Below are positions 3,081 through 63,496 of a stretch of 64,000 bases of DNA, piece after piece; position 1 is the stretch's first letter; each line of letters opens with the position of its first letter. The translations under genes were made by a program, and so were the position numbers. The stretch is from contig CANLBJ010000002.1 in assembly GCA_947488905.1 (NCBI GenBank), positions 620,001 to 684,000 of the forward strand, read 5' to 3'. The stretch comes from Ulvibacter algarum (GTDB taxonomy: Bacteria > Bacteroidota > Bacteroidia > Flavobacteriales > Flavobacteriaceae). The notes beneath the pieces are model-generated. The model saw nothing but the letters and a program-made list of their open reading frames with translations. It was not told the DNA's origin and made no database searches.

Positions 3081-3497
3081 ATGGTAAACAGTATAGAATT
3101 TGCTAAAAGAATAGAAAAAATACTCTCATATTATGGTATTTCTGCCACCGCTTTTGCTGTAGCAATAGACTTTAATCGCTCTACTATTTCGCATATTCTT
3201 TCTGGCAGAAACAAGCCAAGTTTAGAGTTTGTACTTAAAATTGTGGAGACTTATCCAGAGGTAGAATTGTATTGGTTATTAAATGGAAAGGGAAGCTTCC
3301 CTCCTGCTCAAGATTCAAGTATTACTATTTCCGAAGAAAAAATAGAAGAAGTTAAAAATGAAACCAAGCCTTCTGTCCAACAAAAGGTGAACATTGAGAA
3401 CTCATTACCTCCTATTTCTACAAAATCTAATGCTTCAAAAATTGACAGAATTGTTATTTTTTATACTGATGGTTCTTTTAAAGAATATTTACCTTAG
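3081..3497 (+). CDS. XRE-family helix-turn-helix transcriptional regulator
   Basis: 138 residues. Residues 5-66 form a Cro/CI-type helix-turn-helix (AFAVAIDFNRSTISHILSGRNKPSLEFVLKI in outline), followed by a typical ELYWLLNGKG segment. A low-complexity linker (about 75-118) leads to a short conserved-looking end, IDRIVIFYTDGSFKEYLP. It has no ligand domain. The four TTTACANNTGTAAA palindromes upstream, shared with the divergent M14 peptidase, suggest that it controls itself and the peptidase; this is inference from position. One copy of the window-wide CTTCGGAAAT motif lies inside the gene at 3327-3336. Confidence 0.88.
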   Translation: MVNSIEFAKRIEKILSYYGISATAFAVAIDFNRSTISHILSGRNKPSLEFVLKIVETYPEVELYWLLNGKGSFPPAQDSSITISEEKIEEVKNETKPSVQQKVNIENSLPPISTKSNASKIDRIVIFYTDGSFKEYLP

Positions 3498-3550
3498 AAG
3501 TGCTCTTGTCTTTGCTTAAAATTTCAGAAATTTGCTAGACTATATATATT

Positions 3551-3922
3551 ATGAAATTACTACTCCTTCTTAGCGTGTTATTACTTGTAAGTTGCTACCA
3601 ACCAGAACGTAATTGCGCTCATTTTAAAACGGGCACTTTTGAGTTTGAAACTCTTGTAGGCACAGAAATCTTAAAAACAACTTTTGTACGTAATGATTCT
3701 ATAGAAATTGATTACTTTAGAGGCAAAGCAGACACATCTTCTATAAGATGGCTTAATGACTGCGAGTTTATTGTCAAACACTTGAACCCTAAAAATATGG
3801 AAGAAAAGAAGACAATGCACATGAAGATATTAACCACAGACAATGACACATACCTATTTGAATACAACATTGTAGGCGATACCAGAAAAGAAAAAGGTAC
3901 TGCCAGAAAAATTGCTGAATAA
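3551..3922 (+). CDS. predicted lipoprotein of unknown function
   Basis: 123 residues with a lipoprotein signal peptide: hydrophobic stretch 3-13 and lipobox LVSC with Cys15. The rest is a small beta-rich domain with no motif I recognise. It stands 20 bases before the terC-like gene in the same direction, so it is probably co-transcribed with it. Similar small flavobacterial proteins are sometimes labelled topoisomerase; nothing here supports that. Confidence 0.75.
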   Translation: MKLLLLLSVLLLVSCYQPERNCAHFKTGTFEFETLVGTEILKTTFVRNDSIEIDYFRGKADTSSIRWLNDCEFIVKHLNPKNMEEKKTMHMKILTTDNDTYLFEYNIVGDTRKEKGTARKIAE

Positions 3923-3942
3923 ACTAACTAACTTTAAAACCT

Positions 3943-7335: not shown

Positions 7336-7364
7336 ATTATTTAAAATTTCAGAAGTTAAAAATA

Positions 7365-10715: not shown

Positions 10716-11819
10716 TTATACTGAAATATTCTGTCTGTTGATAATTGACTTTAAATCTTCTTTACTAGGTAAAACTGTTTGATATTTACTCGCAAATATC
10801 TGTTCATTGTTTTCTGGTAAAGTATATTCTACAACAGATTCTCTTTTATTTTTGCACAGCACAATCCCTATCGTGTTGTTTTCATCTTCTAATTTTAGTT
10901 CTCTATCATAATAATTAACATACATCTGCATTTGACCTAAATCTTGATGTTTAAGCTCTCCTATTTTTAAGTCAATTAAAACAAAGCATTTTAAAATTCT
11001 ATTATAAAAAACTAAATCAATTCTAAAATGTGTATCGTCTAATGATATTCTTTTTTGTCTTGCAACAAACGTAAAACCATTGCCTAACTCGAGTAAAAAA
11101 TGCTCCAGTTTATTAATTATTTCTTGTTCTAAATCGTTTTCAGAATATGCCGTAAGCTCTGGCAGCCCTAAGAATTCTAATATATAAGGATCCTTAATAA
11201 CATCTTGAGGCTTTTTTATAACGTGCCCTTTTTCTGAAAGCTTTTGTACTTCTTTTTTATCTCTACTTAATACGAGCCTCGTGTAAAGTGCAGAATCGTA
11301 TTGTCTATTTAACTCTCTAACACTCCAATTGTTTTTCTGCGATTCTATTTCATAAAACTGTCTTTCTGCCACATCATCTATGCGCATTAATTTTAAATAA
11401 TGCGACCAACTTAGTAGAAATTGATGCTTTTTTAAGTTGTCTTCAGAAATCGGCAACACTGTTGCCGATTTTGATAATGGCAATTGGTCAGACACTGTCT
11501 GGCTTTTGTTTAAAGAAAGGTTAGACACTGTCTGCCCTTTTCCGTAAATTAAATACAGATTACGCATTTGCTTGAGGTTTGTAACAGAGAAACCTTTACC
11601 AAACTCCTTAGTCAATACTTTTGAAAGTCCTTTTAAAATGGCTTTACCATACTCAGCTCTTTCTTCTCCACCCTGCTGTTCTTCAACGAGCAATCTCCCA
11701 ATTTCAAAATAAGTCAATACCATCGTCTGGTTTACAGTGCGTAAAACCTGACTTTTTGCAGATTGTAATAAAGTTACAACCTGAGCGTATAGTTCTTTAT
11801 TTGAAGTGGTTATTGGCAA
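10716..11819 (-). CDS. DUF1016 (YhcG-type) PD-(D/E)XK nuclease domain protein
   Basis: 367 residues. An N-terminal DUF1016_N helical domain (about 8-95; NQTMVLTYFEIGRLLVEEQQGG, EFGKGFSVTNLKQMRNLY) and a middle LSWSHYLKLMRIDD block lead to a C-terminal restriction-like nuclease with Asp268 (FRIDLVFYN), Asp283-Leu-Lys285 (VLIDLKIGEL) and Gln298. Residues 96-118 are an in-frame repeat of about 11 residues (QTVSNLSLNKS / QTVSDQLPLSKS). The start is TTG at 11817-11819; no ATG fits. Such genes often travel with restriction or defence islands, but here it lies alone between parE and parC, suggesting insertion. The true role is unknown. Confidence 0.88.
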   Translation of the reverse strand: MPITTSNKELYAQVVTLLQSAKSQVLRTVNQTMVLTYFEIGRLLVEEQQGGEERAEYGKAILKGLSKVLTKEFGKGFSVTNLKQMRNLYLIYGKGQTVSNLSLNKSQTVSDQLPLSKSATVLPISEDNLKKHQFLLSWSHYLKLMRIDDVAERQFYEIESQKNNWSVRELNRQYDSALYTRLVLSRDKKEVQKLSEKGHVIKKPQDVIKDPYILEFLGLPELTAYSENDLEQEIINKLEHFLLELGNGFTFVARQKRISLDDTHFRIDLVFYNRILKCFVLIDLKIGELKHQDLGQMQMYVNYYDRELKLEDENNTIGIVLCKNKRESVVEYTLPENNEQIFASKYQTVLPSKEDLKSIINRQNISV

Positions 11820-13742: not shown

Positions 13743-13916
13743 AAAACGTGTGAATAGTTGTTAAATATAAGGGTTCACGCACAATTGTGGAATATTTCCA
13801 AAGCAAAGTAATTAACAATTAGCAGGTGTCAATTGTTAGTAATTATTTCTGAAATATCAAGGGGGTAAAATTGGCTAAATAAATCAAAAAATGCCATAGT
13901 TTTAAGCAAAAAAAAA

Positions 13917-16149: not shown

Positions 16150-16336
16150 TAACTATTTTTAAATGGTGTATAAAGATACTTGATTCTTATCAATCATTAA
16201 TGCATAAAACCTAAGACAACTCATTTATAGCTTTTTATAAAATGAATTAATATTTACAAAACCTTCATATTTCAGAAGTTATAATACAGGAGTTAAAATC
16301 AAATGCTATTTTTTTCTTAAAGCGTCTCTTTTTTCT

Positions 16337-16762: not shown

Positions 16763-17977
16763 TTAAGAAAAGGTATAATACCCACACTTTAAATAAGCTC
16801 CTTCAGGAAATCCAATAGGGTGATCTGTGTCGTGAAAGGTTTTATCCTTAAATTCAAAATACCTACCACTAGCTTTTAAAGTCTCTGTGTTGATTTGAAA
16901 AAACTCATCTGCAGTAATCCTAGAACTACAAGAAGCTAATACCAACAATCCTTTTTTTGCAACCAGCTGCGCTCCCAACCTAGCTAACTGAGCATATTTC
17001 TTTTTTGCAACTACAATTTCTCTTTTACTTTTCGCAAAACTTGGCGGATCTATAACCACTACATCATATTGCTTTCCTTCTTTAATTAAGCGCTCTAACT
17101 CGTCAAAAGCATCTCCAGCAATTGTAAAGTGTTTTCCTTTATGTTTATTTAATCTTCCATTATCTTTAGCTACTTCTAGCGCTTGTGCACTTATATCAAG
17201 GCTTGTAACCTCTGTAGCTCCTTTTGCCAAAGCATGTATAGAAAACCCGCCGGCATAACTAAACACATCTAGCATCGTTTTTCCCTTACTCAATCTACCT
17301 ACTCGTCTTCTATTTTCGCGATGGTCTAAGAAATACCCTGTTTTATGACCTTTAATTACGTGTGCAGAAAATTTAACACCGTGCTCTATAAACTGAACCA
17401 CCTCACTTTTTAAAACCCCATAAAGCACCTCACCATCTACCAATCTTGCTTTATTAGTTTGCAATCCTCTACTTAAACGCAACACTAAGGTGTCACAACC
17501 AGATATCTCTAATAACTTCGGAAATATCATGTGAATGAAAGGAAACCATATTTCATTATAAATTTTCACAACCAAAACTGACGCGTATACGTCTGCTATT
17601 AATCCCGGAAAGCCATCATTCTCCCCAAAGAGTAATCGATAACTATTAGTATTTGTATCTAAAAGATCAGAACGTAATTTAAATGCAGCATCTATTTTAT
17701 TTGAAAAATAAGCTTCATCTAATTTTGCACCACCGCCAAAGTGCAACATCTTAATCCTAATAGGAGAATCTGGATCATATAACCCCACTCCCATTGGTTT
17801 ATTAGTTGTGCGATTAAAAATTATAGAAATATCTCCGGCATTTCCTTCTTTGTTGATTTTCTCAACGCTGTCAGAAAACAACCAAGGATGCCTTGATTTT
17901 ACAGAGCGTTCACCTTTGTTAGTGAGTTTAACCGCTAAAATTTGCGGTTGTATTTCGGGTAGTGATTTGTTGAACAA
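16763..17977 (-). CDS. rlmI: RlmI-type class I SAM-dependent rRNA (cytosine-C5) methyltransferase
   Basis: 404 residues. An N-terminal PUA-like RNA-binding domain (about 14-95; RHPWLFSDSVEKI) and the RlmI/RlmK-type methyltransferase core follow: GYFLDHRENRRRV, SAM motif LDVFSYAGGFSIHAL, VTSLDISAQALE, and VVVIDPPSFAKSK near residue 310. Close relatives methylate 23S rRNA C1962. It is the last gene of the long minus-strand run, 4 bases after the acyl carrier protein, but is probably unrelated to polyketide synthesis. A CTTCGGAAAT copy lies inside at 17516-17525. Confidence 0.88.
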   Translation of the reverse strand: MFNKSLPEIQPQILAVKLTNKGERSVKSRHPWLFSDSVEKINKEGNAGDISIIFNRTTNKPMGVGLYDPDSPIRIKMLHFGGGAKLDEAYFSNKIDAAFKLRSDLLDTNTNSYRLLFGENDGFPGLIADVYASVLVVKIYNEIWFPFIHMIFPKLLEISGCDTLVLRLSRGLQTNKARLVDGEVLYGVLKSEVVQFIEHGVKFSAHVIKGHKTGYFLDHRENRRRVGRLSKGKTMLDVFSYAGGFSIHALAKGATEVTSLDISAQALEVAKDNGRLNKHKGKHFTIAGDAFDELERLIKEGKQYDVVVIDPPSFAKSKREIVVAKKKYAQLARLGAQLVAKKGLLVLASCSSRITADEFFQINTETLKASGRYFEFKDKTFHDTDHPIGFPEGAYLKCGYYTFS

Positions 17978-18252: not shown

Positions 18253-19512
18253 TTAATATTTTTTAAAGATAACACAGGCATTTACATCCCCAAAACCAAA
18301 ACTAGCTTTTGCTATAATATTTAAAGGTGTGTTCACCATTTTTCTTGGTATACAATTTTCAGAAACTAACGCAACCACCTCATTATGAATAACATCACAA
18401 TTTACATTAGGGAAAACAAAATTATTATCTAACTGCAACAAAGCGCTAACAATCTCAATACTACCGCTTGCAGCTAAACAATGCCCGGTCATTCCTTTTA
18501 AAGAATTTATATAAGGAAAGTCCTTGCCTTTTCTATCAAGCGCCAAACACCAATTTTCAATTTCAACAGGATCTTTAACCGTAGCTGTAAGATGACCGTT
18601 TATATAATCAATCTCATTTTTGTTAATATTAGAATCTTTAAGTGCAGCAATAATACATTTCTGTACTGCCTCACTGTTAGGCGCAGTCATACTACCACCA
18701 TTGCGTTGACCTCCACTATTAACTGCTCCACCTAAAACTTCACCATATATTTTTGCACCTCTTGCAAGTGCACTTTCTAGTGATTCTAGGACAACCGCTC
18801 CTGCTCCGCTTCCGGGTATAAAGCCACTTGCAGCCTCACTTAATGGTCCTGCAGTTTTCTCTGGTTCTTGATTATGTTTGTAACTTGTAACTTTCATAGC
18901 GTCAAAACCTCCCCAAATATAAGGACCACCATCACTAGTACTACCACATAACATTTGAGAGGCTTTTCCAGCTTTTATGCGTTCATAACCTAATAAAACT
19001 GCCTCTGTACCAGTAGCACAAGCAGAAGAATTAGTGGTAACCATATTTGCAGCACCCGTCATTCCGCCTAGATAAGCACTTACGCCACTCGCCATTGTTT
19101 GAGGCACAGAAGTACTCCCCAATCGTCTTACTTTGCCTTCGTCAATTTTATAAATAGATTCTCTAAATTTTGCGACACTCGTCGTTCCTGCACCCATAAT
19201 AATGCCTAACTCGTACAGTGCCTCTTCTCCACCTACATTGATATTGGCGTCTTTAAGCGCATCCATTCCTGCAATCACACCATATAAAATGCCATTACTA
19301 TCAAAGTTTCTTAATTGTAGTTCTGTAAAATACTCACGTTTTTTTTCTTCGGAAATTTCAGGAATACCACCTAATTGGCAAGAGAAGTTTAACGACTCTA
19401 ATTCTGGAAAATGAGCAATACCAGACCGTCCATTTTTTAACGATTCTGTAAACTCTGAAACACTTGTTCCGTTAGGGGCACAAACACCAAGTCCTGTTAT
19501 TACTACTCTCAT
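18253..19512 (-). CDS. beta-ketoacyl-ACP synthase (FabF-like) of the PKS operon
   Basis: 419 residues with thiolase fold. Catalytic residues are all present: Cys165 (TNSSACATGTEAV), His307 (NGHLTATVKDP, in place of the usual NAHGT), Lys339 and His344 (LKGMTGHCLAASGS). It therefore should condense malonyl-ACP with an acyl chain. Neighbours (ACP, dehydratase, reductase) indicate a dedicated acyl-chain line separate from primary fatty-acid synthesis. The altered sequence around His307 is a hint of divergent substrate use. One CTTCGGAAAT copy lies at 19347-19356. Confidence 0.9.
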   Translation of the reverse strand: MRVVITGLGVCAPNGTSVSEFTESLKNGRSGIAHFPELESLNFSCQLGGIPEISEEKKREYFTELQLRNFDSNGILYGVIAGMDALKDANINVGGEEALYELGIIMGAGTTSVAKFRESIYKIDEGKVRRLGSTSVPQTMASGVSAYLGGMTGAANMVTTNSSACATGTEAVLLGYERIKAGKASQMLCGSTSDGGPYIWGGFDAMKVTSYKHNQEPEKTAGPLSEAASGFIPGSGAGAVVLESLESALARGAKIYGEVLGGAVNSGGQRNGGSMTAPNSEAVQKCIIAALKDSNINKNEIDYINGHLTATVKDPVEIENWCLALDRKGKDFPYINSLKGMTGHCLAASGSIEIVSALLQLDNNFVFPNVNCDVIHNEVVALVSENCIPRKMVNTPLNIIAKASFGFGDVNACVIFKKY

Positions 19513-19595: not shown

Positions 19596-20027
19596 TTAAA
19601 GCGTCTTCATCATCCCACTCATCTCTCCTATTGCGACAACTTCTCCTTTATTATTAGTCATTCTCACCTTACATTTCAGCTTTCCAAATCTAAAGTACAT
19701 TTTTTCTGAAATCACTGTTACTCGTTCACCCGGAAATACAGGCAAATAGTAATCTGCATGCATCGTGGTAAATGCAATTTTTATTTCCGAAGTGATTGGT
19801 GCAGACAAATAAATACCTAAGCATACCAACCCTATTTGCGCCATGCACTCTGATAGAATAACACCTGGCGTTACTGGGTTATCTTTAAAATGCCCTTCAT
19901 AAAAAAAGGAATCTGTTTTAAAAGTATAATCTCCTTTTGCACCATCTTTAGTTACAGACTCTAAAGAATCTACAAATAGAAACGGTTCTGAATATGGTAG
20001 TAAAGCTATAATTTCTTTATTAGTCAT
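19596..20027 (-). CDS. 3-hydroxyacyl-ACP dehydratase (FabZ-like hotdog fold)
   Basis: 143 residues. It starts with the FabZ-type LLPYSEPFLFVDSL and carries the active-site His46 (YEGHFKDNPVTPGV) and Glu60 (LSECMAQ). It should remove water from 3-hydroxyacyl-ACP. It lies 83 bases before the ketosynthase and 5 bases after the SDR gene. FabZ length is normal. A reverse-strand CTTCGGAAAT copy lies at 19783-19792. Confidence 0.88.
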   Translation of the reverse strand: MTNKEIIALLPYSEPFLFVDSLESVTKDGAKGDYTFKTDSFFYEGHFKDNPVTPGVILSECMAQIGLVCLGIYLSAPITSEIKIAFTTMHADYYLPVFPGERVTVISEKMYFRFGKLKCKVRMTNNKGEVVAIGEMSGMMKTL

Positions 20028-32930: not shown

Positions 32931-32996
32931 TCACTGCATTTTTATAACTTCTGAAATATTCTGTGTTCAAACACGGTCTATTTCATTGCTATTAGC

Positions 32997-39783: not shown

Positions 39784-39845
39784 TAAGTAATATTTTTATG
39801 ATGTCACGCAAACAAGAATAATTATTTTTACTTCAGAAATAATAA

Positions 39846-40676: not shown

Positions 40677-40813
40677 TTCTGTCTTTTATTGTTAATTTCT
40701 GAAATTTAAAAACTTGAAAACATCTCATTTATTTGTTAATAGCACAAATATCAAATCTGTCAAATTTTCGCGTAAGCAAAACCTACATAGTAACGTTTTT
40801 AAATTTGACTATT

Positions 40814-47430: not shown

Positions 47431-50335
47431 GTAAAGCCTGTCTTAAAATGGTTACAGGATGCAAAGCATCTCGCTGTGTGCCATCTTTAATTTGATGACG
47501 ACAACTTGTACCATTTGCAGCAATAATGGTTTCTTTAGAGGCTTTATTAACTGCAGGAAATAAACGCTGTCCACCTATCTTCATACTAATATCATAGTGT
47601 TCTTTTTCGTACCCAAAACTCCCTGCCATCCCGCAACAGCCTGCATTTATAATAGTTGGCGAGTAATGCTTCGGAAAGTTTAATATATCAAAAGTATGCT
47701 TTGTGTTGCTTAATGCCTTCTGGTGGCAATGCACATGTACTTTTATTGTTTTTGTTTCTTCAGAAAATTGATTGGTTTTAATCTTGCCATTTTTCATTTC
47801 ATTTGCCAAAAACTCTTCAATTAGATAAGTATTTGATGCTATATGCTTCGAGCTATCTCTATCTTCTGCCAACCTTAGATACTCATCCCTAAACCCTAAA
47901 ATTGCAGAGGGCTCTATCCCAACTAAAGGAATTTTATCTGAAACTAGATTTTTTAATGCCGAAATATTCTTGTCAATTTCTGTTTTAGCTTCATCAAGAA
48001 ACCCTTTTGAAATTAATGCTCTCGCACTATCTAAATGTGTAATTATCTTGACAGAATATCCTAATTCATCTAATAAATAAAAAGCATCTTGAGCGAGCGA
48101 AACATCTTGATAATTTGAAAACTCATCTACAAATAGAATGAGATTAAAATTTTTATCAGAAGACTGGTTTTTAATACTTTGATAATATTTATTAAAAGTT
48201 TTAATTGAATACTTAGGCACACTCCTTTTTGAGTGTACTCTACTCCATTTCTTAACTAATCCAGCAGTAAAAAAACCAGTAAGCAAGCCATTTGCAAGCC
48301 TTGGAAATTGCGCTGCTTTTTTTGCATATTGAGAACTAAAACCAAACAGTTTTGTGGCTCTAGAAGGCTTGTTGTTTTTTTGATATTGATATAAAAATTC
48401 TGTTTTTGCACTCGCCATGTCCACATTACTAGGACACTCTGTTGCACATGCTTTACAACTTATACAAAGATCAAATACTTCTTTCAATTCCTTAGAATCA
48501 AAAGCGTTTGCGCTAGTAGGATTAGTTAATACTTCTCGCAATACATTTGCTCTACCTCGTGTGGTATCTTTTTCATCCTTAGTGGCGTGATAACTTGGGC
48601 ACATTACCCCTGCAGACAATTCTGTTTTTCTACAATCTCCGCTACCGTTGCATTTTTCTGCTAACAATAACAAACCCTGTGAGTCACTAAAATCCATTTT
48701 AGTAAGCAAATCTGGCTGTTTGACATCACTTAAATAACGAAGGTTCTCATCCATTTTATAAGCATCTACAATCTTACCTGGATTAAAAATATTATTTGGA
48801 TCAAACGTTGATTTTATTTCTTTAAAAAGCTTGTAGTTTTTATCACCCAATAATAAAGGTATAAATTCTCCACGCACAATACCATCGCCGTGCTCTCCAG
48901 AAAAAGACCCTTTGTATTTTTTAACTAATAGAGCTACATCTGTAGTTATTTTTCTAAAATACGCTACATCTTCTCCTTTCTTTAAATTTAAGATAGGCCT
49001 CAAATGCAACTCGCCAGCACCAGCGTGTGCATAATACACAGCTTCTTGCTTATAACCTTTCATTAAAGCACTAAAGTCCTTAATATATTCTGGTAAATCT
49101 GACAATGCTACAGCTGTATCTTCTATACAAGCTACCGCTTTTCTATCACCCACCATATTGCCTAGTAAACCTAAACCTGCCTTGCGCAGCTCCATTGCCT
49201 TATTAATATCTTCACCTTGCAATACAGGGTATGCATAGGCCACGCCACTTTTAGACAAGCTATCTATTAAAGCCTTAGATTTTAATTCTACCTCATTTTT
49301 ACTAATATCTTTTAACTCTAAGAGTAAAATAGCTTTTGGGTTTCCCTCTACAAAAAAACGATAAGCATCATATTTTTTATTAGACTTGGTACAATTTAAA
49401 ATAGTGTCGTCTAGCATCTCGCAGGTATCTAAATCATGCGTCATGGCTACTACAACATCTTGCATGCAAGCATCAATAGAATCATAATGAGCCACTACCA
49501 TTCTTTCAAACGTGGGTGGTAAACTATCTAATTTTAAGGTAATCTCTGTTGTAAAGGCAAGTGTACCTTCGCTTCCTGCTAATAGGCTACAAAGATTAAA
49601 AGGTTCTTTTCCTTCAAATATGTCTGTATCTAATAATGAATCTAAGGCATAGCCAGTATTTCTACGATGTATCTCTTGCTTCGGAAATTGGGCTTTTATT
49701 TCTAATGCTACTTCAGGCTTTGAAAGCCTAGTTAATATTGTATTATAAATTTTACCCTCAAGCGTGTTGTCTTTTATTTTTTCTGAAATTTTCTCGTCTT
49801 TAATATTTCCGAAGAGAGCCTCATCACCATTAGACAATACCGTTTTTAAATTTAAAACCTTATCACGTGTAACACCATACTTAATACTAGTTGTACCGCT
49901 AGAGTTATTACCTACCATCCCTCCTATCATACATCTATTTGAGGTTGACGTATTAGGACCAAAGAATAGCCCAAAGGGTTTGAGGTACGTGTTAAGCTCA
50001 TCTCTAATAACCCCAGGTTGCACGGTTACGGTTTTATTTTTTTGATCAAAAGAAACAATCTTGTTAAAATATTTTGAAACATCTACTATGATCCCATCAC
50101 CCACGCATTGCCCTGCGAGTGAGGTTCCTGCAGTTCTAGGCACTAGTGATGTTTTATGGTCTGTAGCAAAGGCAATAAGTTGCTGTATTGCTCTCACAGT
50201 TTTAGGAAACGCGACTCCTTGTGGCATTCTTTTATAAACAGAAGCATCTGTTGCATATAACATTTTATGAAGCTCATCAAAATGAAAATCTCCTTCAAAT
50301 GTATCTCTAAAAGCCTCTAAAATCTGTTTTGTCAT
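47417..50335 (-). CDS. fused FAD-binding and Fe-S dehydrogenase (D-2-hydroxyacid type, YdiJ-like)
   Basis: 972 residues. Residues about 30-260 are a VAO/PCMH FAD-binding domain (PRTAGTSLAGQCVGDGIIVDVS), followed by FAD-oxidase C (ending HGDGIVRGEFIPLLLG). Residues about 545-640 carry [4Fe-4S] cysteines (KCNGSGDC, DLCISCKACATECPSNVDM). CCG-type motifs close the protein (HCHQKAL, AGCCGMAGSFG). It probably oxidises a D-2-hydroxy acid and passes electrons to quinone or another carrier. Copies of CTTCGGAAAT lie at 49679-49688 and 49805-49814. Confidence 0.88.
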   Translation of the reverse strand: MTKQILEAFRDTFEGDFHFDELHKMLYATDASVYKRMPQGVAFPKTVRAIQQLIAFATDHKTSLVPRTAGTSLAGQCVGDGIIVDVSKYFNKIVSFDQKNKTVTVQPGVIRDELNTYLKPFGLFFGPNTSTSNRCMIGGMVGNNSSGTTSIKYGVTRDKVLNLKTVLSNGDEALFGNIKDEKISEKIKDNTLEGKIYNTILTRLSKPEVALEIKAQFPKQEIHRRNTGYALDSLLDTDIFEGKEPFNLCSLLAGSEGTLAFTTEITLKLDSLPPTFERMVVAHYDSIDACMQDVVVAMTHDLDTCEMLDDTILNCTKSNKKYDAYRFFVEGNPKAILLLELKDISKNEVELKSKALIDSLSKSGVAYAYPVLQGEDINKAMELRKAGLGLLGNMVGDRKAVACIEDTAVALSDLPEYIKDFSALMKGYKQEAVYYAHAGAGELHLRPILNLKKGEDVAYFRKITTDVALLVKKYKGSFSGEHGDGIVRGEFIPLLLGDKNYKLFKEIKSTFDPNNIFNPGKIVDAYKMDENLRYLSDVKQPDLLTKMDFSDSQGLLLLAEKCNGSGDCRKTELSAGVMCPSYHATKDEKDTTRGRANVLREVLTNPTSANAFDSKELKEVFDLCISCKACATECPSNVDMASAKTEFLYQYQKNNKPSRATKLFGFSSQYAKKAAQFPRLANGLLTGFFTAGLVKKWSRVHSKRSVPKYSIKTFNKYYQSIKNQSSDKNFNLILFVDEFSNYQDVSLAQDAFYLLDELGYSVKIITHLDSARALISKGFLDEAKTEIDKNISALKNLVSDKIPLVGIEPSAILGFRDEYLRLAEDRDSSKHIASNTYLIEEFLANEMKNGKIKTNQFSEETKTIKVHVHCHQKALSNTKHTFDILNFPKHYSPTIINAGCCGMAGSFGYEKEHYDISMKIGGQRLFPAVNKASKETIIAANGTSCRHQIKDGTQRDALHPVTILRQALLTHQ

Positions 50336-52204: not shown

Positions 52205-52214
52205 CTTCGGAAAT
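52205..52214 (+). repeat. intergenic copy of the CTTCGGAAAT motif
   Basis: An exact copy in the short gap between the GH3/beta-lactamase gene and bshA. Confidence 0.85.
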
Positions 52215-52218: not shown

Positions 52219-55146
52219 TTAATATTTAACCTTTAAGGCTTCATAAATTACTTCTTGAATATTGCTTCTTAGATTACTACCTATAAGTTTTCTGTTTCCT
52301 GCATCTGGATAGGTACGGTTACTCATAAAAACATAAACAAGGTCTTGATCTGGGTCTGCCCAAGTAAAAGTTCCAGTAAAACCACTGTGGCCAAAACTGT
52401 TTAAAGATACACAACCACAAGTTGGTCCAGAATCTCCTAGTTGTGGTTTGTCGAAACCTACGCCACGCCTTACATTTTCTTCACAGAAATAACACGTATT
52501 AAACGCATCTATAGTTTCTGGCTTAAAGTATTGCTTATTTCCATAACTACCTTTCCATAGGTACATTTGCATTATTTTTGCTACATCATTAGTATTACTA
52601 AACAAGCCTGCGTGACCACCTACTCCACCAAGCATAGCTGCACCTTGATCATGTACATACCCTTGTACTACTTGTTGTCTAAAAACTTGATCATTCTCTG
52701 TAGGTATAATGGTAGATTTTGAAAATTTATCTAAAGGTAAATAAGTAGTATTGTTAGCCCCTAGAGATTCATAAATGTTTCTTTGCACTAGTGACTCTAA
52801 TGGAGTACCATAAAAGTCTTCTACATACTTTTTAAGCAAATAATAAGGTAAATCACTATACTTATAACCTTTTCTTGTTCTTAGTTCACTTTCTTTTATC
52901 TGTAAGTATATAGAATCTCGATATTCTCGTTTCATAAACAGGTTATTTGCTACGGGAACATCAAAATCTCCTTCTTTATTTTTTCTATACCATTTTGATG
53001 ATGGTTTTTTTGTGACACTATCAAGAGTGTTTACATAAAAAGGAATCCAAGCCTTTAACCTTGCTGTGTGCGTTAACATCTCTTGTAAAGTAATGTTTGC
53101 TTTGTCTGTGCCTTTATATTCTGGCAACATATCTTTTAGCTTTGTATCCATTGTTAAAATACCTCTATCATACATATCCATAATGATAGGGAGTGTTGCT
53201 AAAATTTTTGTTAATGATGCCACGTCATAATGATCGTCACTTGTAACCACGTCTTTTTCAGATTGGGTATGAAAACCAAAATTCTTATCATAAATCACTT
53301 TACCACTGCGAGCCACAAGTATCTGCATACCTGGAGCCATCTTCCCCCATAATCCTACTCTGGCAAGAGAATCTATTCTGTAATTTAATTTGTAACTATT
53401 TACTCCCACACTTTCTGGAGTACCGTATTGTAATCTTTTAATCAAACTCGTTTGTAAACCAGTTCCTGCAGGAATCTGCTCGTTTATACTTACAGGTAAT
53501 TTACCTTTTGATTGACGTGCACCAAAAATAATCTGAGCAGATAAAGACTGTGACATCTCGCTATTTTGATAAGACACCATAATAGTCTCAATCTCTGCCA
53601 TATTCTGTATTTGCAATAAAGCGTATGGACTTGTAAAGACATCAAGTATAACGTCATTAGCGATTGCTATTTCTTGTATCCATTGCAGTTCTTTTGCTGT
53701 AAACTTATAACTCTTCCAAGGGTTTGAGTTACTTTTATGAAAACCAATAATGACTTTGTCGTACCCTTTTAATTGTTTTAATAAAGCCGGGAGTTCTTTA
53801 TTATTAATGTGATCAATTCTATCATATTTCCGAAGTGCATCTAAGAAAGGCTGTCCAGAATCATCACCAAGGTTTACGTAAGCAAATTTTTTGTTTTTTA
53901 ATTCTTGAATAGGTAGATTGAGACTGTCATTCTTTACAACAGTGATTGCCGCCTCCATTGCACGCTCATAAAGTTCATCATCATATGGTGAGTTAAGTGT
54001 AGATACCAAACCATAAGGATTTACGGGTTGATAACGATGTAATCCTGCCTTAAATTTTGCAAATAAAATCTTCTTTACAGAGTGCGCTAAACGCTCTTCT
54101 GTGATCACTTCTTCGCGGTAAGCATTTACTAATAAGGCGTGCGCTTTTGGTATATCTTCAGAAATAAGCAAAACATCATTACCTGCTAAGAAAGCCGCAA
54201 GATCTATCTCGCCAGGGCTACTATAATTTGAAGCGCCTTTCATATTAAGAGCATCTGTAAAAATAAGACCGTTAAAGCCCAATTGTCCTTTAAGCATATC
54301 TGTCACTACATATTTTGAAAGACTAGAAGGAAATCCAGGACGATTATCTAAACTCGGAATATTAAGATGAGCTACCATCACACTGCTCAAACCGTCTTGA
54401 ATGAGCCTTCTGTAAGGGTATAATTCTACACTATCTATACGTTCTTTTGTAAAGTGAACCGTAGGCAATATTTTATGAGAATCTTGATCTGTATCCCCGT
54501 GACCAGGAAAATGTTTTGCATTTGCTATTATCCCAGCGCGTTGCATTCCTTTCATAAACGCAGATGCTTTCTCGCTTACGTTCTCCATATCTTCACCAAA
54601 AGAACGGTTACCAATAATTGGATTTTTTGGGTTGGTATTTATATCAACCACGGGAGCAAAATTAATGTGCATCCCCATACTTTTTGTGTGTCTACCTATG
54701 CGGTACCCAACTTCTTCTACTATTTTATTGTCTTGAATAGCACCCAAAGTCATATTATATGGATAAGCATATGTAGAGTCTAAACGCATTGCTAGCCCCC
54801 ATTCTGCATCCATGGCCACCATTAGTGGGTATTTTGCTGCGTTCTGATAATCGTTATTAAGTTTTGCTTGTCTTACAGGGCCTCCTTTTGAGAAAATAAT
54901 ACCACCTATATGTTGTTCTTTAATTAGGTTTAAAATTTTGTCTGTTTTCTCTTTTGGGTCACTAGAAAAAACATCTGCCATAAATAGTTGTCCTATTTTT
55001 TCTTGTACAGACATCTCGCCGTATATACTATCTACCCATTTTTGTTGATATGTGAGGGCATTTTTAACAATTAAAGGGTTTGCCTGTTGCGCAAACGAAG
55101 CGATTGAAGTAACTAAAAGTAAAGCTAAGGCAAGTATGTTTTTCAT
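52219..55146 (-). CDS. GH3 beta-N-acetylglucosaminidase (NagZ-like) fused to a serine beta-lactamase-like domain
   Basis: 975 residues. Signal peptide (about 1-19). A GH3 catalytic domain (about 35-370) has NagZ features: KHFPGHGDTDQDSH and LIFTDALNMKG. A GH3 C-terminal part (to about 570) is followed by a class C beta-lactamase/PBP4-like domain (about 585-970) with the SLTK (SxxK) motif in DVASLTKILA and HSGFTGT near the end. Such fusions occur in Bacteroidota and probably act in murein turnover in the periplasm. A CTTCGGAAAT copy is at 53826-53835. Confidence 0.92.
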   Translation of the reverse strand: MKNILALALLLVTSIASFAQQANPLIVKNALTYQQKWVDSIYGEMSVQEKIGQLFMADVFSSDPKEKTDKILNLIKEQHIGGIIFSKGGPVRQAKLNNDYQNAAKYPLMVAMDAEWGLAMRLDSTYAYPYNMTLGAIQDNKIVEEVGYRIGRHTKSMGMHINFAPVVDINTNPKNPIIGNRSFGEDMENVSEKASAFMKGMQRAGIIANAKHFPGHGDTDQDSHKILPTVHFTKERIDSVELYPYRRLIQDGLSSVMVAHLNIPSLDNRPGFPSSLSKYVVTDMLKGQLGFNGLIFTDALNMKGASNYSSPGEIDLAAFLAGNDVLLISEDIPKAHALLVNAYREEVITEERLAHSVKKILFAKFKAGLHRYQPVNPYGLVSTLNSPYDDELYERAMEAAITVVKNDSLNLPIQELKNKKFAYVNLGDDSGQPFLDALRKYDRIDHINNKELPALLKQLKGYDKVIIGFHKSNSNPWKSYKFTAKELQWIQEIAIANDVILDVFTSPYALLQIQNMAEIETIMVSYQNSEMSQSLSAQIIFGARQSKGKLPVSINEQIPAGTGLQTSLIKRLQYGTPESVGVNSYKLNYRIDSLARVGLWGKMAPGMQILVARSGKVIYDKNFGFHTQSEKDVVTSDDHYDVASLTKILATLPIIMDMYDRGILTMDTKLKDMLPEYKGTDKANITLQEMLTHTARLKAWIPFYVNTLDSVTKKPSSKWYRKNKEGDFDVPVANNLFMKREYRDSIYLQIKESELRTRKGYKYSDLPYYLLKKYVEDFYGTPLESLVQRNIYESLGANNTTYLPLDKFSKSTIIPTENDQVFRQQVVQGYVHDQGAAMLGGVGGHAGLFSNTNDVAKIMQMYLWKGSYGNKQYFKPETIDAFNTCYFCEENVRRGVGFDKPQLGDSGPTCGCVSLNSFGHSGFTGTFTWADPDQDLVYVFMSNRTYPDAGNRKLIGSNLRSNIQEVIYEALKVKY

Positions 55147-57107: not shown

Positions 57108-58415
57108 CTACTCATTTTTCCAGTTTAACCTGTCTTGCTGGTTAAAAGGCCAAGGTGCTCCGTTGTTTTCTATGTTTGTCATAGTAACGTTAAGCTCGTT
57201 TGGCGCAGCACTTTTCTCCATAACTAAGTATTGACGCATTTCCATAATAATAGATAATGGGTCTATACTTACTGGGCAAGCTTCTACACAGGCGTTACAA
57301 CTTGTACAAGCCCATAGTTCTTCTTCTGAAATATAATCTCCTAATAATTGTTTATTATCTGGTACAAAAACACCTTTGTTAGCATCTAAGTTTTTACCTA
57401 CTTCCTCGAGACGGTCACGTGTGTCCATCATTATTTTACGTGGCGATAATTTTTTACCTGTAATATTTGCTGGACATTCGCTAGTGCAACGACCACATTC
57501 TGTACAAGTGTAAGCGTTTAATAGCTGCACTTGTGTTAAATCCATCACATCACTGGCTCCAAACTTTGCTGGTACTGCTTGCTCCTCTCCTGCTGGTGGT
57601 GCTGCAAATGGATCTATGTTTGGATCCATCATCATCTTCACCTCTTTTGTTACTGCTTCGTTATTTTTAAACTGTCCTTTTGGTGTAACCCTTCCGAAGA
57701 AAACATTAGGGAAAGCTAACATAATATGTAAATGCTTTGAGAAATATAAGTAGTTTAAGAAAATAAGAATACCTGTTATATGTATCCACCAAGAAGCACG
57801 CTCTATAATATGTAGCGTCCCTTCTGAGGTTCCAGAAAACCAACTTGCAATATATTGTGAGATTACGTTTCCGTTATCCATTTCTTGAAAATGAACATCT
57901 GTAGCATTCATTATTAGAAACAATGACATTAGTACCATCTCAAAATAAAGGATGGCGTTACCATCATTTTTAGGCCAGCCTTTCATTTCGGGTGACATAA
58001 AACGTTTTAATTTTATGATGTTTCTTCTTATCCAGAAAACAATAACAGAAACTAATACCAATAAGGCTAATATTTCGAAAGTACCTATGAGCACCCCGTA
58101 AAAGCTACCTAAATAAGAAGAAAAAATACGGTGTGTACCAAAAAGGCCATCGATAATTATCTCAAGAACTTCTATATTTATAATAATAAAACCAAGGTAC
58201 ACAATAATGTGCATCGCTCCAGATACAGGGCGCACGACCATTTTTGACTGCCCTATTGCTATACGGCCCACATTTGCCCAGCGTTGCCCTTTATCTGAAA
58301 CAGATACGGGTAACCCAAGTTTAATGTTTCTAATAACTTTTTTAATGTTAAACGTGAAGTAACCAACTCCTACAATGAGAAGTAGTAAAAAGATAATGTT
58401 AGGTATATACTGCAT
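57108..58415 (-). CDS. membrane Fe-S electron-transfer protein (HdrC/NarI-like fusion)
   Basis: 435 residues. About five to six membrane helices in residues 1-240, with histidines that may bind haem, resemble the NarI/cytochrome b part. The cytoplasmic part contains two [4Fe-4S] clusters: CTECGRCTSECPANITG and CTSCNACVEACPVSI. With the CCG protein downstream it forms an Hdr-type pair that probably exchanges electrons between membrane quinone and a cytoplasmic donor. It is 3 bases from the MCE gene, so the operon is tight. Confidence 0.87.
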   Translation of the reverse strand: MQYIPNIIFLLLLIVGVGYFTFNIKKVIRNIKLGLPVSVSDKGQRWANVGRIAIGQSKMVVRPVSGAMHIIVYLGFIIINIEVLEIIIDGLFGTHRIFSSYLGSFYGVLIGTFEILALLVLVSVIVFWIRRNIIKLKRFMSPEMKGWPKNDGNAILYFEMVLMSLFLIMNATDVHFQEMDNGNVISQYIASWFSGTSEGTLHIIERASWWIHITGILIFLNYLYFSKHLHIMLAFPNVFFGRVTPKGQFKNNEAVTKEVKMMMDPNIDPFAAPPAGEEQAVPAKFGASDVMDLTQVQLLNAYTCTECGRCTSECPANITGKKLSPRKIMMDTRDRLEEVGKNLDANKGVFVPDNKQLLGDYISEEELWACTSCNACVEACPVSIDPLSIIMEMRQYLVMEKSAAPNELNVTMTNIENNGAPWPFNQQDRLNWKNE

Positions 58416-59419: not shown

Positions 59420-60562
59420 CTATTTATCTTGGGTTTTAAGAACTTTATCAAGATTTAACTTTTTACCATCTTTATAAGCCACAACAAAGCAAGTTGTATA
59501 CCCTTTTTCTTTAGCCTGAGTTTGCAATATTTTGATCTCATTGTAGTCTGAGGTATTTCCGTAGTAATACTTATATAAGCTTCCTGCTTGCACTCTGTCT
59601 ACTCCTTTTAACCCTTTAAAATTTTGAGATATTGTTTCTAGTTTATTACCAGATGCAGCAATTTGCACTCTAAAATCTATACCTCTATAAATTTTCTTTT
59701 CTGAAATTTTAATGGCTTCATCAATATCCTGTTCTGTGATTACTGGGTTCTGAAAATCATTTGTAGCAAGCTCAAGGTTCTTTTTATAACTAATAATACC
59801 ATTTGCAACCTGGGCTGCCATCTCTTTTCTTCCTTTCTTACTATTTATGTATTTACCTTCTGTATTGTTAGTTAAAAAACCTAGCTCTACAAGAACACTT
59901 GGCATATAACTGCTATGTAACACCCAGAAAGGGGCTTGTTTTACATTTCTGTTTTTACGCTTTAAGTTGTTTACAATATTGTTTTGTATTAAACCTGCTA
60001 GCATTATGCTCTGGTCTAGATATTCTTCTTGCATAATTGTAAGACCTATTAAAGACTCTGGCGAGTTTGGGTCAAAACCTGCATAAGATTCTTCATAATT
60101 TTCTTCTAGAAAAATCACTTCATTCTCCTTTTTTGCTGTCTCAAGGTTTTTTCCGGTTTTATCAATACCCATTACAAATGTCCCTACACCGTATGCTTGA
60201 GAGTGGTGAGAGTCGCAATGTATAGACACAAAAATGTCTGCATCTGCTTCATTTGCTATAGGACCACGCTCATATAATGTTTTAAAAACATCTGTTTTTC
60301 TTGTGTAAATTACTTTAAAATCTGGGTGAGCCTCTAGAAGTTTACCCACTTGCAGAGTTACATCAAGTACAATGTCTTTCTCATAAAAACCGTTACCTCT
60401 ATTACCGGGGTCTGTACCACCGTGCCCAGCATCGAGTACTACCACAAAAGGTTTTTGTGTTAATTTTGAAATAGTATCACTGCCAGATACGTCTTTAAAA
60501 GTAAAAGCTGTTAAAACAATTGAAAGGGCAAGTACTAAAAGAAGTGATAGTTTCGTTTTCAT
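59420..60562 (-). CDS. N-acetylmuramoyl-L-alanine amidase (Amidase_3) with SPOR-like tail
   Basis: 380 residues. Signal peptide (about 1-27). The zinc amidase domain contains VVLDAGHGGTDPG (His47), NGFYEKDIVLDV (Glu61), VSIHCDSHHSQ and VLVELGFLTN (catalytic Glu). The end (about 295-378; DFRVQIAASGNKLE, KYYYGNTSDYNEIKILQTQAKEKGYTTCFVVAY) looks like a SPOR domain binding denuded murein. It should act in septal cell-wall cleavage. It is divergent from lptD. Confidence 0.93.
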   Translation of the reverse strand: MKTKLSLLLVLALSIVLTAFTFKDVSGSDTISKLTQKPFVVVLDAGHGGTDPGNRGNGFYEKDIVLDVTLQVGKLLEAHPDFKVIYTRKTDVFKTLYERGPIANEADADIFVSIHCDSHHSQAYGVGTFVMGIDKTGKNLETAKKENEVIFLEENYEESYAGFDPNSPESLIGLTIMQEEYLDQSIMLAGLIQNNIVNNLKRKNRNVKQAPFWVLHSSYMPSVLVELGFLTNNTEGKYINSKKGRKEMAAQVANGIISYKKNLELATNDFQNPVITEQDIDEAIKISEKKIYRGIDFRVQIAASGNKLETISQNFKGLKGVDRVQAGSLYKYYYGNTSDYNEIKILQTQAKEKGYTTCFVVAYKDGKKLNLDKVLKTQDK

Positions 60563-60766
60563 AGGAATATAACGGAAGTTTAAAGTGCAATATTTTATAA
60601 GTTACATTATAATTTAAAGCCAAAAATTATGATTAATTTTGAACTTTCAATAACTGAGCCAAGATTAATCTGTTTTGATCTTTTAATGTAGTGACAAAGT
60701 AAAGAAATAATGTGATGCTCAGAAAATTTCAGAAACAAAAAAAAGTGCCTAAAACACTAAAAAATA

Positions 60767-63478
60767 GTGCAGACACCTAAGCAATTTTATTTTATTCTAT
60801 TCCTCTTACTCCAGTTGGGTGGTCTATCGCTATATGCACAAGACCCAATTAGAGAAGGTGAAATCAATTTACCTATAGAAGAAGAAAAACCTATTGTTTT
60901 ACCTTCTACTGAAGAGGGAAAAATAACCCCCACTACTCCAGAAAACAACACTAAAGTAACTGATACCATACGCCCAAAAGAAGATTTAAAACACATTATG
61001 GAGTATTATGGAGAAGACTATGTTTTTCTTGATAAGAAAAATAATCGTGCTTACCTATACAACAAAGCCTATGTAGTTTATGGTGACACACGTATTGAAG
61101 CCGGTGAGATTGTGATGGACTATAACACAAATGAAATTTATGCTCGTGGAATTGATAGCGCAGGTGTTTATATGCAAAAACCTGTCTTTGTTCAAGGTGC
61201 AAATGAGGTAAGACCAGACTCTTTACGCTTTAACAACGATACAGAAAAAGCTATAATTTATAATTCTAGAACCCAACAAAATGGTTTTAATGTAATTGCA
61301 GAGATTACAAAAAAACAAAATGACTCTGTTATATTCTTAAGAAATGTAAAGTTTACAACTTCAGAAAATATAGATGACCCTGAGTATTACTTTTATACTC
61401 GTAGAGCAAAATTTGTCCCTAATAAGAAGATTGTGACTGGGTTTACAAATATGTATATCGCAGATGTCCCTACCCCTATTGCTTTACCATTTGCTTATTT
61501 CCCACTAACAGAAGACCGGGCTTCTGGTTTTATCTTACCCTCTGTAGGTGATAATAGCAATGGCTTTTCACTACAAAATGGTGGTTATTATTTTGCATTA
61601 AGTGATTATATAGATCTTACTGCACAAGGAGATTACTCTACTAATGGTAGTTATGGTCTGCGAGCAGAGTCTAACTATGCTTTAAGATATAAGTTTGCAG
61701 GTAATATAAGTTTGCGATATGAAAACAATATAACAGGAGAAAGGGGTTTTGATGATTTTTCGCAAAGTGCTATTTACAATATACGCTGGTCTCACAGACA
61801 AGATGCTAAAGTAAATCCATCTTCACGTTTTTCTGCAAATGTAAATCTAGGTAGTAGTGTTTATTACCAGCAATCACAAAACCAAACTAATAATGCAAGC
61901 GCGCTTGTTAACACATTAAGCTCTTCTATATCTTACACAAAAACCTTTGACATAGAACCGCAAGTAAATATAAGTGTTGCTGCTACTCACTCTCAAAATA
62001 CGCAAACACAGGCTATAAATATGTCGCTACCTAACTTTAACGGTAGTGTGGCACGTATTTATCCTTTTGCACCAAAAATAGGTGCTAAAAAAGGGATTAT
62101 TGATAATATTAATGTGCAATACAATGTTACCGCAGAAAACAGAATAAGCACGGTAGACTCTCTGTTTTTTAAACCCGAAATGTTTAATAATGCACAAATA
62201 GGTGCAAGACACAGCATCCCTATTTCTACAAACTTTAAAATACTTGATTATTTAAGTGCCTCTATGAGTACTAATTATCAAGAAACTTGGTTATTAAAAA
62301 CAATAAGCAGACGTTATGACGCTCTCGCAGATGACGGTGAAGGCGCAGTAATAGAAGACACAATTCCTGGTTTTGACAGCTACAGAACGTATAATTTTTC
62401 TACCAGTTTAGGTACTACTGTTTACGGTACTTTTAATCGTGGTGAAGATAAAAAGATACAAGGTATTCGTCATGTAATGCGCCCCTCTATTAGCTATAAT
62501 ATAAACCCAGCTTTTGACAAATATTATGATGACTATGATATCATCACTCCAGCTACCGCAGATGAGGCTGCTTCTACAGAAACAATAGAATATTCAAGAT
62601 TTGAAAACACATTATACGGTGCTCCCGGAAAAACTTTTAGTAGTAGTATAGGACTATCATTAAGTAATACACTAGAGGCAAAAGTAAGGTCACGTGACAC
62701 AACGGCAACCGAAGCTAAAAAAGTAACAATACTTAATAACCTTAATTTTGCCACTGCATATAACATAGCAGGTGACTCATTAAACCTAAGCCCCTTAAAT
62801 ATAAGCGGTAGCATACCTATAGTAGAAAAGTTAGATATTAACTTTAGAGGTACATTAAACCCTTACGCTCTCGATAATAACAATGATATAGTTGATGTCT
62901 GGAACATTAATAATGGTGGTAGCCTTTTTAGACTAACAGATGCAAATTTTAGTCTTAATTACTCTTTTAGCAGCAAAGACATCTCTGGATCTAAAAAGAA
63001 TGATGAAATTCTAGAAAACGATACTTTTAGAAATGGTGGTAGACAAGATGATCTTTTTGGTGAGTCTACTAATCAAATAGACGGAAATATTTTTGAGCCA
63101 GACCAGCAGTCTGATTATAAAAACAAAGAGTTTTATAGCTTTAGTATTCCTTGGGATTTACGTCTTGCCTATACAATGACATACAGCAATAACAGTCGTC
63201 AAAACGAGATTTCATCTCAATCACTTATGTTTAGTTCAAACTTAGAGCTATCTCCTAGATGGCGTGTAGGTATGTCTTCTGGTTATGATTTTAAGAATAA
63301 AGGTGTGACTTTAACACAGTTTAGATTTCAGCGAGATCTAGAAAGCTGGCAAATGAGTTTTAACTGGACGCCTATAGGTAGCATAAATACTTCTTGGTAC
63401 TTCTTTATTGGTATAAAAAGTAATATTCTTAGTGATATCAAATATGATAAACGTAGAATACCAGACAGAAATCTGTAG
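60767..63478 (+). CDS. lptD: LPS-assembly protein LptD (OstA-like outer-membrane protein)
   Basis: 903 residues starting with GTG at 60767; no ATG fits and a stop lies at 60758. Signal peptide (about 1-24, ending SLYAQ). An OstA-type beta-jellyroll region (about 75-200; MDYNTNEIYARGID) accepts LPS, and a large C-terminal beta-barrel (about 230-903) inserts it in the outer leaflet. It forms the translocon with LptE. The barrel is tyrosine- and asparagine-rich, as in other Bacteroidota. The 204-base upstream gap to the divergent amidase holds no other gene. Confidence 0.9.
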   Translation: MQTPKQFYFILFLLLQLGGLSLYAQDPIREGEINLPIEEEKPIVLPSTEEGKITPTTPENNTKVTDTIRPKEDLKHIMEYYGEDYVFLDKKNNRAYLYNKAYVVYGDTRIEAGEIVMDYNTNEIYARGIDSAGVYMQKPVFVQGANEVRPDSLRFNNDTEKAIIYNSRTQQNGFNVIAEITKKQNDSVIFLRNVKFTTSENIDDPEYYFYTRRAKFVPNKKIVTGFTNMYIADVPTPIALPFAYFPLTEDRASGFILPSVGDNSNGFSLQNGGYYFALSDYIDLTAQGDYSTNGSYGLRAESNYALRYKFAGNISLRYENNITGERGFDDFSQSAIYNIRWSHRQDAKVNPSSRFSANVNLGSSVYYQQSQNQTNNASALVNTLSSSISYTKTFDIEPQVNISVAATHSQNTQTQAINMSLPNFNGSVARIYPFAPKIGAKKGIIDNINVQYNVTAENRISTVDSLFFKPEMFNNAQIGARHSIPISTNFKILDYLSASMSTNYQETWLLKTISRRYDALADDGEGAVIEDTIPGFDSYRTYNFSTSLGTTVYGTFNRGEDKKIQGIRHVMRPSISYNINPAFDKYYDDYDIITPATADEAASTETIEYSRFENTLYGAPGKTFSSSIGLSLSNTLEAKVRSRDTTATEAKKVTILNNLNFATAYNIAGDSLNLSPLNISGSIPIVEKLDINFRGTLNPYALDNNNDIVDVWNINNGGSLFRLTDANFSLNYSFSSKDISGSKKNDEILENDTFRNGGRQDDLFGESTNQIDGNIFEPDQQSDYKNKEFYSFSIPWDLRLAYTMTYSNNSRQNEISSQSLMFSSNLELSPRWRVGMSSGYDFKNKGVTLTQFRFQRDLESWQMSFNWTPIGSINTSWYFFIGIKSNILSDIKYDKRRIPDRNL

Positions 63479-63486
63479 GTTTTTTA

Positions 63487-63496
63487 CTTCGGAAAT
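63487..63496 (+). repeat. intergenic copy of the CTTCGGAAAT motif
   Basis: An exact copy in the 46-base gap between lptD and ridA. Confidence 0.85.

Follow-up and report, generated by a model that had tools for sequence, protein, structure and literature searches.

A 64,000-nucleotide stretch of the Ulvibacter algarum genome (the window: positions 620,001 to 684,000 of contig CANLBJ010000002.1, assembly GCA_947488905.1) carries 13 exact copies of the 10-mer CTTCGGAAAT, here called the main word, and in our estimate the chances are about even that this is the core of a Bacteroidota word resembling the signals by which some bacteria recognize DNA for uptake. By analogy, its layout matches that of the uptake signal sequences (USS) of Pasteurellaceae and the DNA uptake sequences (DUS) of Neisseriaceae, the latter bound by the pilin ComP: its copies are balanced between strands and occupy all reading frames, there is an intergenic excess, the core is flanked by AT-rich tracts, and individual sites turn over; related words in some relatives and a foreign-looking island nearly devoid of the word may be further points of likeness. 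An earlier note on this DNA had listed an uptake word among several candidates, of which it now appears the best fit.

The over-representation itself is unambiguous. An exact-match recount recovered all 13 copies at the coordinates and on the strands given by the earlier note, together with its ten variants at base 5 (four CTTCAGAAAT and six CTTCTGAAAT, with A or T there) and its observation that C never occupies that base in the window. From base composition (34.3% G+C) one would expect about 0.14 copies, within the 0.1-0.2 per 64 kb estimated in that note; the expectation of an order-4 Markov model is 0.11 if the word is masked and 0.47 if it is not. Of the other one-mismatch words (27 tested), the window contains 6, each a single time, and lacks 21. 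The same note had proposed a genome-wide count against a Markov background; a genome-wide count against the reversed word and a sample set against Markov models both place the word far above expectation. Genome G000, to which the window belongs (3.55 Mb in 33 contigs, the window being part of contig C2), holds 605 copies, 297 forward and 308 reverse, vs 21 of the reversed control word (8 forward, 13 reverse). In a 924-kb sample that includes the window and makes up about 26% of the genome, the word occurs 163 times vs 1.7 expected (order 4, word masked); masked models of orders 2 to 5 give expectations of 0.4-4.5, and the 26 expected under an unmasked order-5 model arises because the word feeds its own background. 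One-mismatch neighbors are again rare in sampled DNA, with 68 occurrences spread over 27 words vs 85 exact copies.

Two further classes accompany the main word. CTTCWGAAAT (W, A or T) occurs 272 times genome-wide vs 56 for its reversed control, and TTTCWGAAAT, a class absent from the earlier finding, 371 + 332 = 703 times vs 60 + 46, a total in which each perfect palindrome is counted twice; both have the same nearer flanks as the main word. TTTCGGAAAT is found only 10 times vs 37 for its reversed control, so that G at base 5 requires C at base 1. An apparent avoidance of TTTCGGAAA (1 vs 10.3 expected) was rejected as the product of an inflated background, the masked order-4 expectation for TTTCGGAAAT being 2.2 vs 1 observed. 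With palindromes merged, site density is about 0.42 per kb (484 kb).

Placement was assessed in G000 and its congeners G287 and G076 with a simple longest-open-reading-frame caller, a crude tool by which 8.6-10.4% of the DNA is noncoding. Noncoding DNA holds 26/85 copies in G000 (where it makes up 8.6%), 22/51 in G287 and 10/24 in G076, an intergenic excess of about fourfold; in the window, the three exact copies described earlier as intergenic (27876, 52205 and 63487) do lie outside open reading frames (ORFs) of at least 120 amino acids. Inside genes, sense and antisense copies are nearly equal (30/29 in G000, 14/15 in G287, 6/8 in G076), and all six reading frames are occupied in G000. The earlier proposal that the constraint acts on DNA, not protein, is borne out by the use of all frames and both gene strands and by the intergenic excess. 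A codon or peptide cause is ruled out by the same frames and strands, and codon-pair bias in one frame, named beforehand as an explanation that could undo the finding, is excluded because genic copies use all six. Among sense copies, 36/114 fall in the first fifth of the gene. Intergenic densities are alike in tandem (0.97 per kb), divergent (0.91) and convergent (0.91) gaps, which disfavors a promoter or terminator site. With local G skew as a proxy for the leading strand, the locally G-rich strand has 61/123 words, and 33/68 in 13 pieces of stronger skew; by this proxy a replication-oriented signal is disfavored. The gene-rich strand carries 58/123. In 96 bins of 5 kb the counts vary much as a Poisson distribution would (variance 2.1, mean 2.3), leaving regular spacing unsupported.

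The word belongs to a larger element whose flanks are AT-rich. In 950.5 kb from the three congeneric genomes, the main class (n=181) has AT-rich tracts at -6 to -1, +11 to +15 and +22 to +27 (the downstream ones near +13 and +24). Preferred bases are T at -2 (0.74), T at +12 (0.70) and A at +14 (0.64); a slighter AT excess reaches out to +43. The first two tracts recur around CTTCWGAAAT (n=82) and TTTCWGAAAT (n=172), where the third is weaker; the control word TAAAGNCTTC, with 17 occurrences only, is a weak control. The earlier emphasis on an interrupted palindrome, TTC-N-GAA, is only in part borne out: neither the main word nor its flanks are symmetric, and sites differ in effect with their orientation.

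A role of orientation shows in closely spaced copies. Taking all 374 oriented CTTC[AGT]GAAAT words in 1410.5 kb of the three genomes, pairs whose AT-rich 3' sides face one another (convergent, “+-”) number 16 at 60-120 bp vs 1.5 expected (10.8x), compared with 2 divergent (“-+”) pairs and none in the same orientation; at 120-350 bp they are at about three times expectation. Divergent pairs show no excess at these distances, and same-orientation neighbors are scarce to about 1.5 kb. Orientation shuffles give 9.8 convergent pairs below 200 bp vs 26 observed, and 11.2 vs 23 at 200-1000 bp, each with 0/3000 shuffles as extreme. Each genome alone supports the shorter range (0/2000, p 0.0115 and p 0.0165); for 200-1000 bp the values are p 0.003, 0.0045 and 0.72. 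About 1.01 Mb of these data was already in hand when the pairing was first noticed; a further 400 kb obtained afterwards has 7 convergent pairs at 60-350 bp vs 1.7 expected, with no divergent and 2 same-orientation pairs. At 350-1000 bp an excess is unsupported (13 vs 12.3 in the earlier data, 4 vs 3.8 in the new 400 kb), although other orientations are scarce there in the full 1410.5 kb, and convergent excess is accordingly claimed only below 350 bp. Less perfect sites also serve as convergent partners 60-350 bp downstream: 25 one-mismatch words vs 8.3 expected, and 15 weak-class (TTTCWGAAAT) sites vs 6.2. Nine control words, several of them rare, show no convergent excess. An excess of sites within 200 bp regardless of orientation (44 vs 20) was set aside as partly an artefact of palindromes counted twice.

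The 26 convergent pairs below 200 bp comprise 11 intergenic, 13 inside one gene and 2 mixed. Orthologous or overlapping pairs excepted, they match one another over about 15-50 bp only, mostly word plus AT-rich flank. At the window's 49679/49805 pair, one arm is fixed in all three species, while its partner in G287 and G076 lies 14 bp away in another frame; in this one case the pair, rather than the position, seems to be kept. Convergent pairing is so far known only in this genus: with the core words that could be defined, neither G284 of the next genus (0/7) nor the other-genus loci L002-L015 (6/22) show the bias, the numbers being small.

Individual sites are only partly conserved. In aligned congeneric DNA of 70-73% identity, main-class copies are identical at 4/13 places from G000 to G287, 4/15 from G000 to G076 and 3/16 from G287 to G076, vs 4.1-6.0% for control 10-mers of the same G+C count, with flank identity of 0.61-0.67. 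Since few aligned copies are identical while density stays high, most sites turn over; the main class is nevertheless kept above control.

Related words extend to some relatives. In a family survey tallied by eye from a table, a threshold of 60 copies and a threefold excess over the control is passed by 21/299 genomes from 12/236 genera; seven of these genera were sampled twice, and there both genomes pass. In a phylum survey of 198 genomes, none of the 179 outside the family reaches 60 copies. In k-mer discovery on samples of 76-464 kb per genome, CTTCGGAAAT is the top 10-mer in G000, G287, G076 and, narrowly, G284. The CTTCGGAA core occurs with different flanks in several genera, and it or TTCWGAA is among the top words of G254, G241 and G198; neither is among those of G025 and G220 in samples of this size. 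CTTCGGAAW, counted in 79 of 80 named loci (one was too short), is in excess in Ulvibacter (17 vs 1.3), Cochleicola (11 vs 1.1), Aureitalea (11 vs 1.5), six Aequorivita loci (3-9 vs 0.6-1.1), Marinirhabdus, Subsaximicrobium, one Psychroserpens and Ulvibacterium, with little or no excess in the Maribacter, Flavobacterium and Winogradskyella loci of that set.

Other words are enriched as well. G241 (L158-L164) has TTCTGCGGAA (14 vs 0.8), TTCTTCGGAA (18 vs 1.7) and CAAAAATGGCA (14 vs 0.6), possibly dialect forms or other elements, and in G025 (L175-L181) several 10- and 11-mers, GGCCTCTCTA and CGACACCGAG among them, occur about 7-9 times each and may be fragments of a single longer repeat. In a distant family, f15 (members include G317, G327, G416, G409 and G477), 12/15 genomes carry 27-56 copies of the main word with reversed controls of 0-13, reflecting perhaps composition, perhaps another enriched word.

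Eight gaps of more than 8 kb between word-class sites occur in the sample, and four were examined. The longest leads to a recent-looking defense or mobile island, covered here over 36.5 kb (G000:C3, about 80,000-116,473; L267, L264) up to its end beside ftsZ. Its predicted products include a Fic protein, a Zot-like ATPase, an MmeI/Eco57I-like methylase, an AbiEii-like AAA protein, a second N6 methylase-like protein and a serine recombinase. In this single case there are no exact copies vs 6.7 expected, and 2 weak ones vs 15.4 expected for all classes.

On the uptake-signal interpretation, competent cells would preferentially bind and import DNA carrying the word, a putative outer-membrane receptor reading CTTC[G/A/T]GAAAT plus the AT-rich flanks; biased import followed by recombination would then let copies build up wherever they are tolerated, in either orientation. 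The uptake step, the receptor and the drive are what we infer. The USS of Haemophilus influenzae (Hin-USS, AAGTGCGGT) and other Pasteurellaceae also combine a 9-10-base core with less conserved downstream AT-rich regions, and have many copies on both strands, about a third of them intergenic, no orientation bias, and dialects along the phylogeny (PMC12616744, PMC1939737). In H. influenzae, 65% of copies are in ORFs, orientation bias round the chromosome is absent and about 10% form inverted repeats (PMC1939737); the two downstream AT-rich regions lie about two helical turns from the core, and dialects exist (PMC12616744), and a bias in intragenic location has been described for uptake signals (PMC2346458). 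Unlike USS, the word here belongs to another phylum, is unrelated in sequence, has an extra upstream AT tract, a lower exact-copy density (0.17 per kb), a second class (TTTCWGAAAT) with dependence between bases 1 and 5, and an uptake role proposed by analogy; convergent pairs less than 350 bp apart, half of them inside genes, are likewise unlike USS as described. DUS resemble it in having hundreds to thousands of dispersed copies, and form inverted repeats and genus dialects, but consist of one continuous motif, about 13 nt long at most (PMC12616744).

Closer at hand, natural competence has been shown in Riemerella, of the same group, and R. columbina prefers its own DNA (PMC7965970). The k-mer count published there for Riemerella and F. 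johnsoniae has A-rich words among its top 10-mers, unlike the word here, and its authors left open whether any frequent k-mer is a signal (PMC7965970). Competence in R. anatipestifer requires ComEC, DprA, ComF and RecA, and in addition four proteins that lack recognized counterparts; one of the four is a DUF5689 protein, and another is predicted to lie in the outer membrane (PMC8459023). The earlier statement that no word of this sequence had been described in the phylum agrees with searches of open-licence PMC papers for uptake sequences in Bacteroidetes and Flavobacteriaceae, for over-represented words, for Chi in Bacteroidetes and for the word itself. None listed a description of it; 65 papers contain the word as text, and the 20 of these that were listed bear unrelated titles.

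Several observations weigh against the uptake-signal interpretation. Gene content does not predict the word, because ComEC (in 7/7 genomes tested, with and without it) and DUF5689 (in 271/299 family genomes, including genomes where it is scarce) are also present in relatives that lack it; DUF5689 is thus useless as a predictor. Conservation is weak outside the main class: from G000, CTTCWGAAAT is identical at 0/5 and 0/6 places and TTTCWGAAAT at 2/18 and 2/13, and 0/5 main-class copies are kept in G284. The island is a single case, found through holding the longest gap, and the three other gaps examined hold metabolic, housekeeping and adhesin-like genes. Finally, a drive model predicts neither convergent pairing nor scarce same-orientation neighbors; the pairing is the weak point of the uptake-signal interpretation, since one USS on its own works in either orientation in H. 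influenzae (PMC1939737). As to DUF5689 itself, G000 (C1:178270-179733) and G284 (C8:28896-30347) have it twice in tandem in one frame, of 742 and 756 amino acids respectively; in the six further genomes tested, every strong match contains it once.

The pairing may mean that the receptor has two sites, or that the binder is an intracellular looping protein. A two-site version of the uptake model, distinctly unlikely in our view, would make the convergent pair the working unit of self-recognition: a symmetric outer-membrane receptor would clamp a loop of up to about 350 bp, the AT-rich inner flanks lying within it. As a guess, the pair would let the receptor hold both legs of the loop, so that uptake could start from internal loops; this would be an independent invention of uptake signals, perhaps with machinery like that proposed for Riemerella. 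The alternative, fairly unlikely, is a nucleoid or chromosome-organizing protein that recognizes the asymmetric word as a symmetric dimer. By bridging two convergent copies it would form loops no longer than about 350 bp, with easily bent, AT-rich inner flanks. It is owing to convergent pairing that this candidate of the earlier note stays in play, now as the main rival: the excess at 60-120 bp, the shuffles below 200 bp in the pooled data and in each genome, the repeat in the later 400 kb, the recruitment of degenerate and weak-class partners, and the conserved arm with its shifted partner all suit it. The word is, however, scarce or absent in most sampled genomes of the family and varies between related genera, which would be odd for a core chromosome protein; copies are not regularly spaced, and the pair bias was not seen in the small samples from other genera.

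Chi sites are short, over-represented and clade-specific, with copy densities similar to that of the word here. A Chi-like hotspot read by AddAB or RecBCD in end repair would suit the word's clade specificity and its scarcity in one foreign island, but this candidate is disfavored because the words divide evenly with respect to the locally G-rich strand (by the skew proxy), and the intergenic excess, AT-tract flanks and convergent pairs are unexpected for Chi; it is very unlikely. A transcription terminator, RNA hairpin or small mobile repeat spread by transposition (a miniature inverted-repeat transposable element or repetitive extragenic palindrome, MITE/REP) is most improbable. Although intergenic excess and inverted pairs might suggest it, and H. 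influenzae uses pairs of USS as terminators (PMC5217627), half of the convergent pairs below 200 bp lie inside one gene, and density does not depend on the type of intergenic gap. TTTC(TTCG)GAAA could make a UUCG tetraloop, but the stem requires T at base 0, where the frequency of T is only 0.38 (A 0.31, G 0.23, C 0.08), so that the tetraloop was rejected, and divergent pairs, which would give the same stem, show no excess. A MITE/REP is disfavored by the short stretch that pairs share. Mutation, codon or composition bias without function has a next to negligible likelihood: TTCWGAA is mildly enriched in several relatives, but the counts for the word and its one-mismatch neighbors already refute such a bias, and excess conservation of the main class and orientation pairing add to this. 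The sequence features examined gave no supporting sign of a packaging or methyltransferase word, and the SOS (LexA-like) box of Flavobacteriaceae, a GGA-N5-TCC palindrome (PMC8565304), is a different sequence.

In the literature consulted, uptake signals are described from Pasteurellaceae and Neisseriaceae; if the uptake-signal interpretation is true, Bacteroidota would provide a further, independent origin, and with it a fresh way of testing what makes such words evolve. This origin may also explain why some flavobacteria prefer their own DNA, and would offer a tag for genetic work in strains that are hard to transform. Should the word instead be a looping site, it would represent an unrecorded chromosome-organizing code with a measurable orientation rule.

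Table 1. Main-word, variant and weak-class sites in the window (positions counted from its first letter)
Site	Position	Strand	Remarks
CTTCGGAAAT	3327..3336	-	in ORF 3081-3497
CTTCTGAAAT	7346..7355	-	outside listed ORFs
CTTCAGAAAT	11441..11450	+	in ORF 10716-11819
CTTCTGAAAT	16269..16278	-	no ORF of at least 120 amino acids here
CTTCGGAAAT	17516..17525	+	exact match
CTTCGGAAAT	19347..19356	+	identical in G287; CTTCTGAAAT in G076
CTTCGGAAAT	19783..19792	-	convergent with weak-class site at 19703 (80 bp)
CTTCGGAAAT	22647..22656	+	aligned place in G076 is TTTCTGAAAT
CTTCGGAAAT	27876..27885	+	intergenic, divergent ORFs on either side
CTTCTGAAAT	32948..32957	+	outside listed ORFs
CTTCTGAAAT	33529..33538	-	convergent with weak-class site at 33200 (329 bp)
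CTTCAGAAAT	34642..34651	-	variant match
CTTCGGAAAT	34981..34990	+	in mutS2 gene; identical in G287 and G076
CTTCTGAAAT	36949..36958	-	variant match
CTTCAGAAAT	39831..39840	+	intergenic, directly 3' of stop codon
CTTCGGAAAT	46489..46498	-	in chorismate synthase gene; identical in G076
CTTCGGAAAT	49679..49688	+	left arm of convergent pair; identical in G287 and G076
CTTCGGAAAT	49805..49814	-	right arm, 126 bp; partner in G287/G076 14 bp away, other frame
CTTCGGAAAT	52205..52214	+	intergenic, 3' of stop codon
CTTCGGAAAT	53826..53835	-	identical in G287
CTTCAGAAAT	54156..54165	+	CTTCGGAAAT in G076
CTTCTGAAAT	57323..57332	+	variant match
CTTCGGAAAT	63487..63496	+	intergenic, 3' of stop codon of LptD-like gene
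weak class, palindromic ATTTCWGAAAT	3521..3531	.	
weak class, palindromic ATTTCWGAAAT	13845..13855	.	
weak class, palindromic ATTTCWGAAAT	31360..31370	.	
weak class, palindromic ATTTCWGAAAT	40695..40705	.	
weak class TTTCWGAAAT	1990..1999	+	
weak class TTTCWGAAAT	19703..19712	+	partner of 19783
weak class TTTCWGAAAT	23509..23518	-	
weak class TTTCWGAAAT	23724..23733	+	
weak class TTTCWGAAAT	26909..26918	+	
weak class TTTCWGAAAT	33200..33209	+	partner of 33529
weak class TTTCWGAAAT	40651..40660	-	
weak class TTTCWGAAAT	49780..49789	+	within the 49679/49805 pair
weak class TTTCWGAAAT	59698..59707	+	
weak class TTTCWGAAAT	60726..60735	-	

Rfam and tRNA scans of the window returned no matches. Its pyruvate dehydrogenase protein has its best match in a contig of a metagenome-assembled genome (91%), with Ulvibacter, Marinirhabdus, Cochleicola and Aequorivita at 79-81% identity. 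A 464-kb sample of G000 contains ten copies of GAGCGCAGTCGA, which resembles a short dispersed repeat and is unrelated to the main word. Of two other proteins encoded in the window, that at 36430-38535 (+) is of the MuiA family, with an internal stretch resembling part of SusC/RagA proteins, and that at 38617-39783 (-) matches PF08014, the microtubule-associated tyrosine carboxypeptidase family, here in a bacterium (E 4.9e-98).

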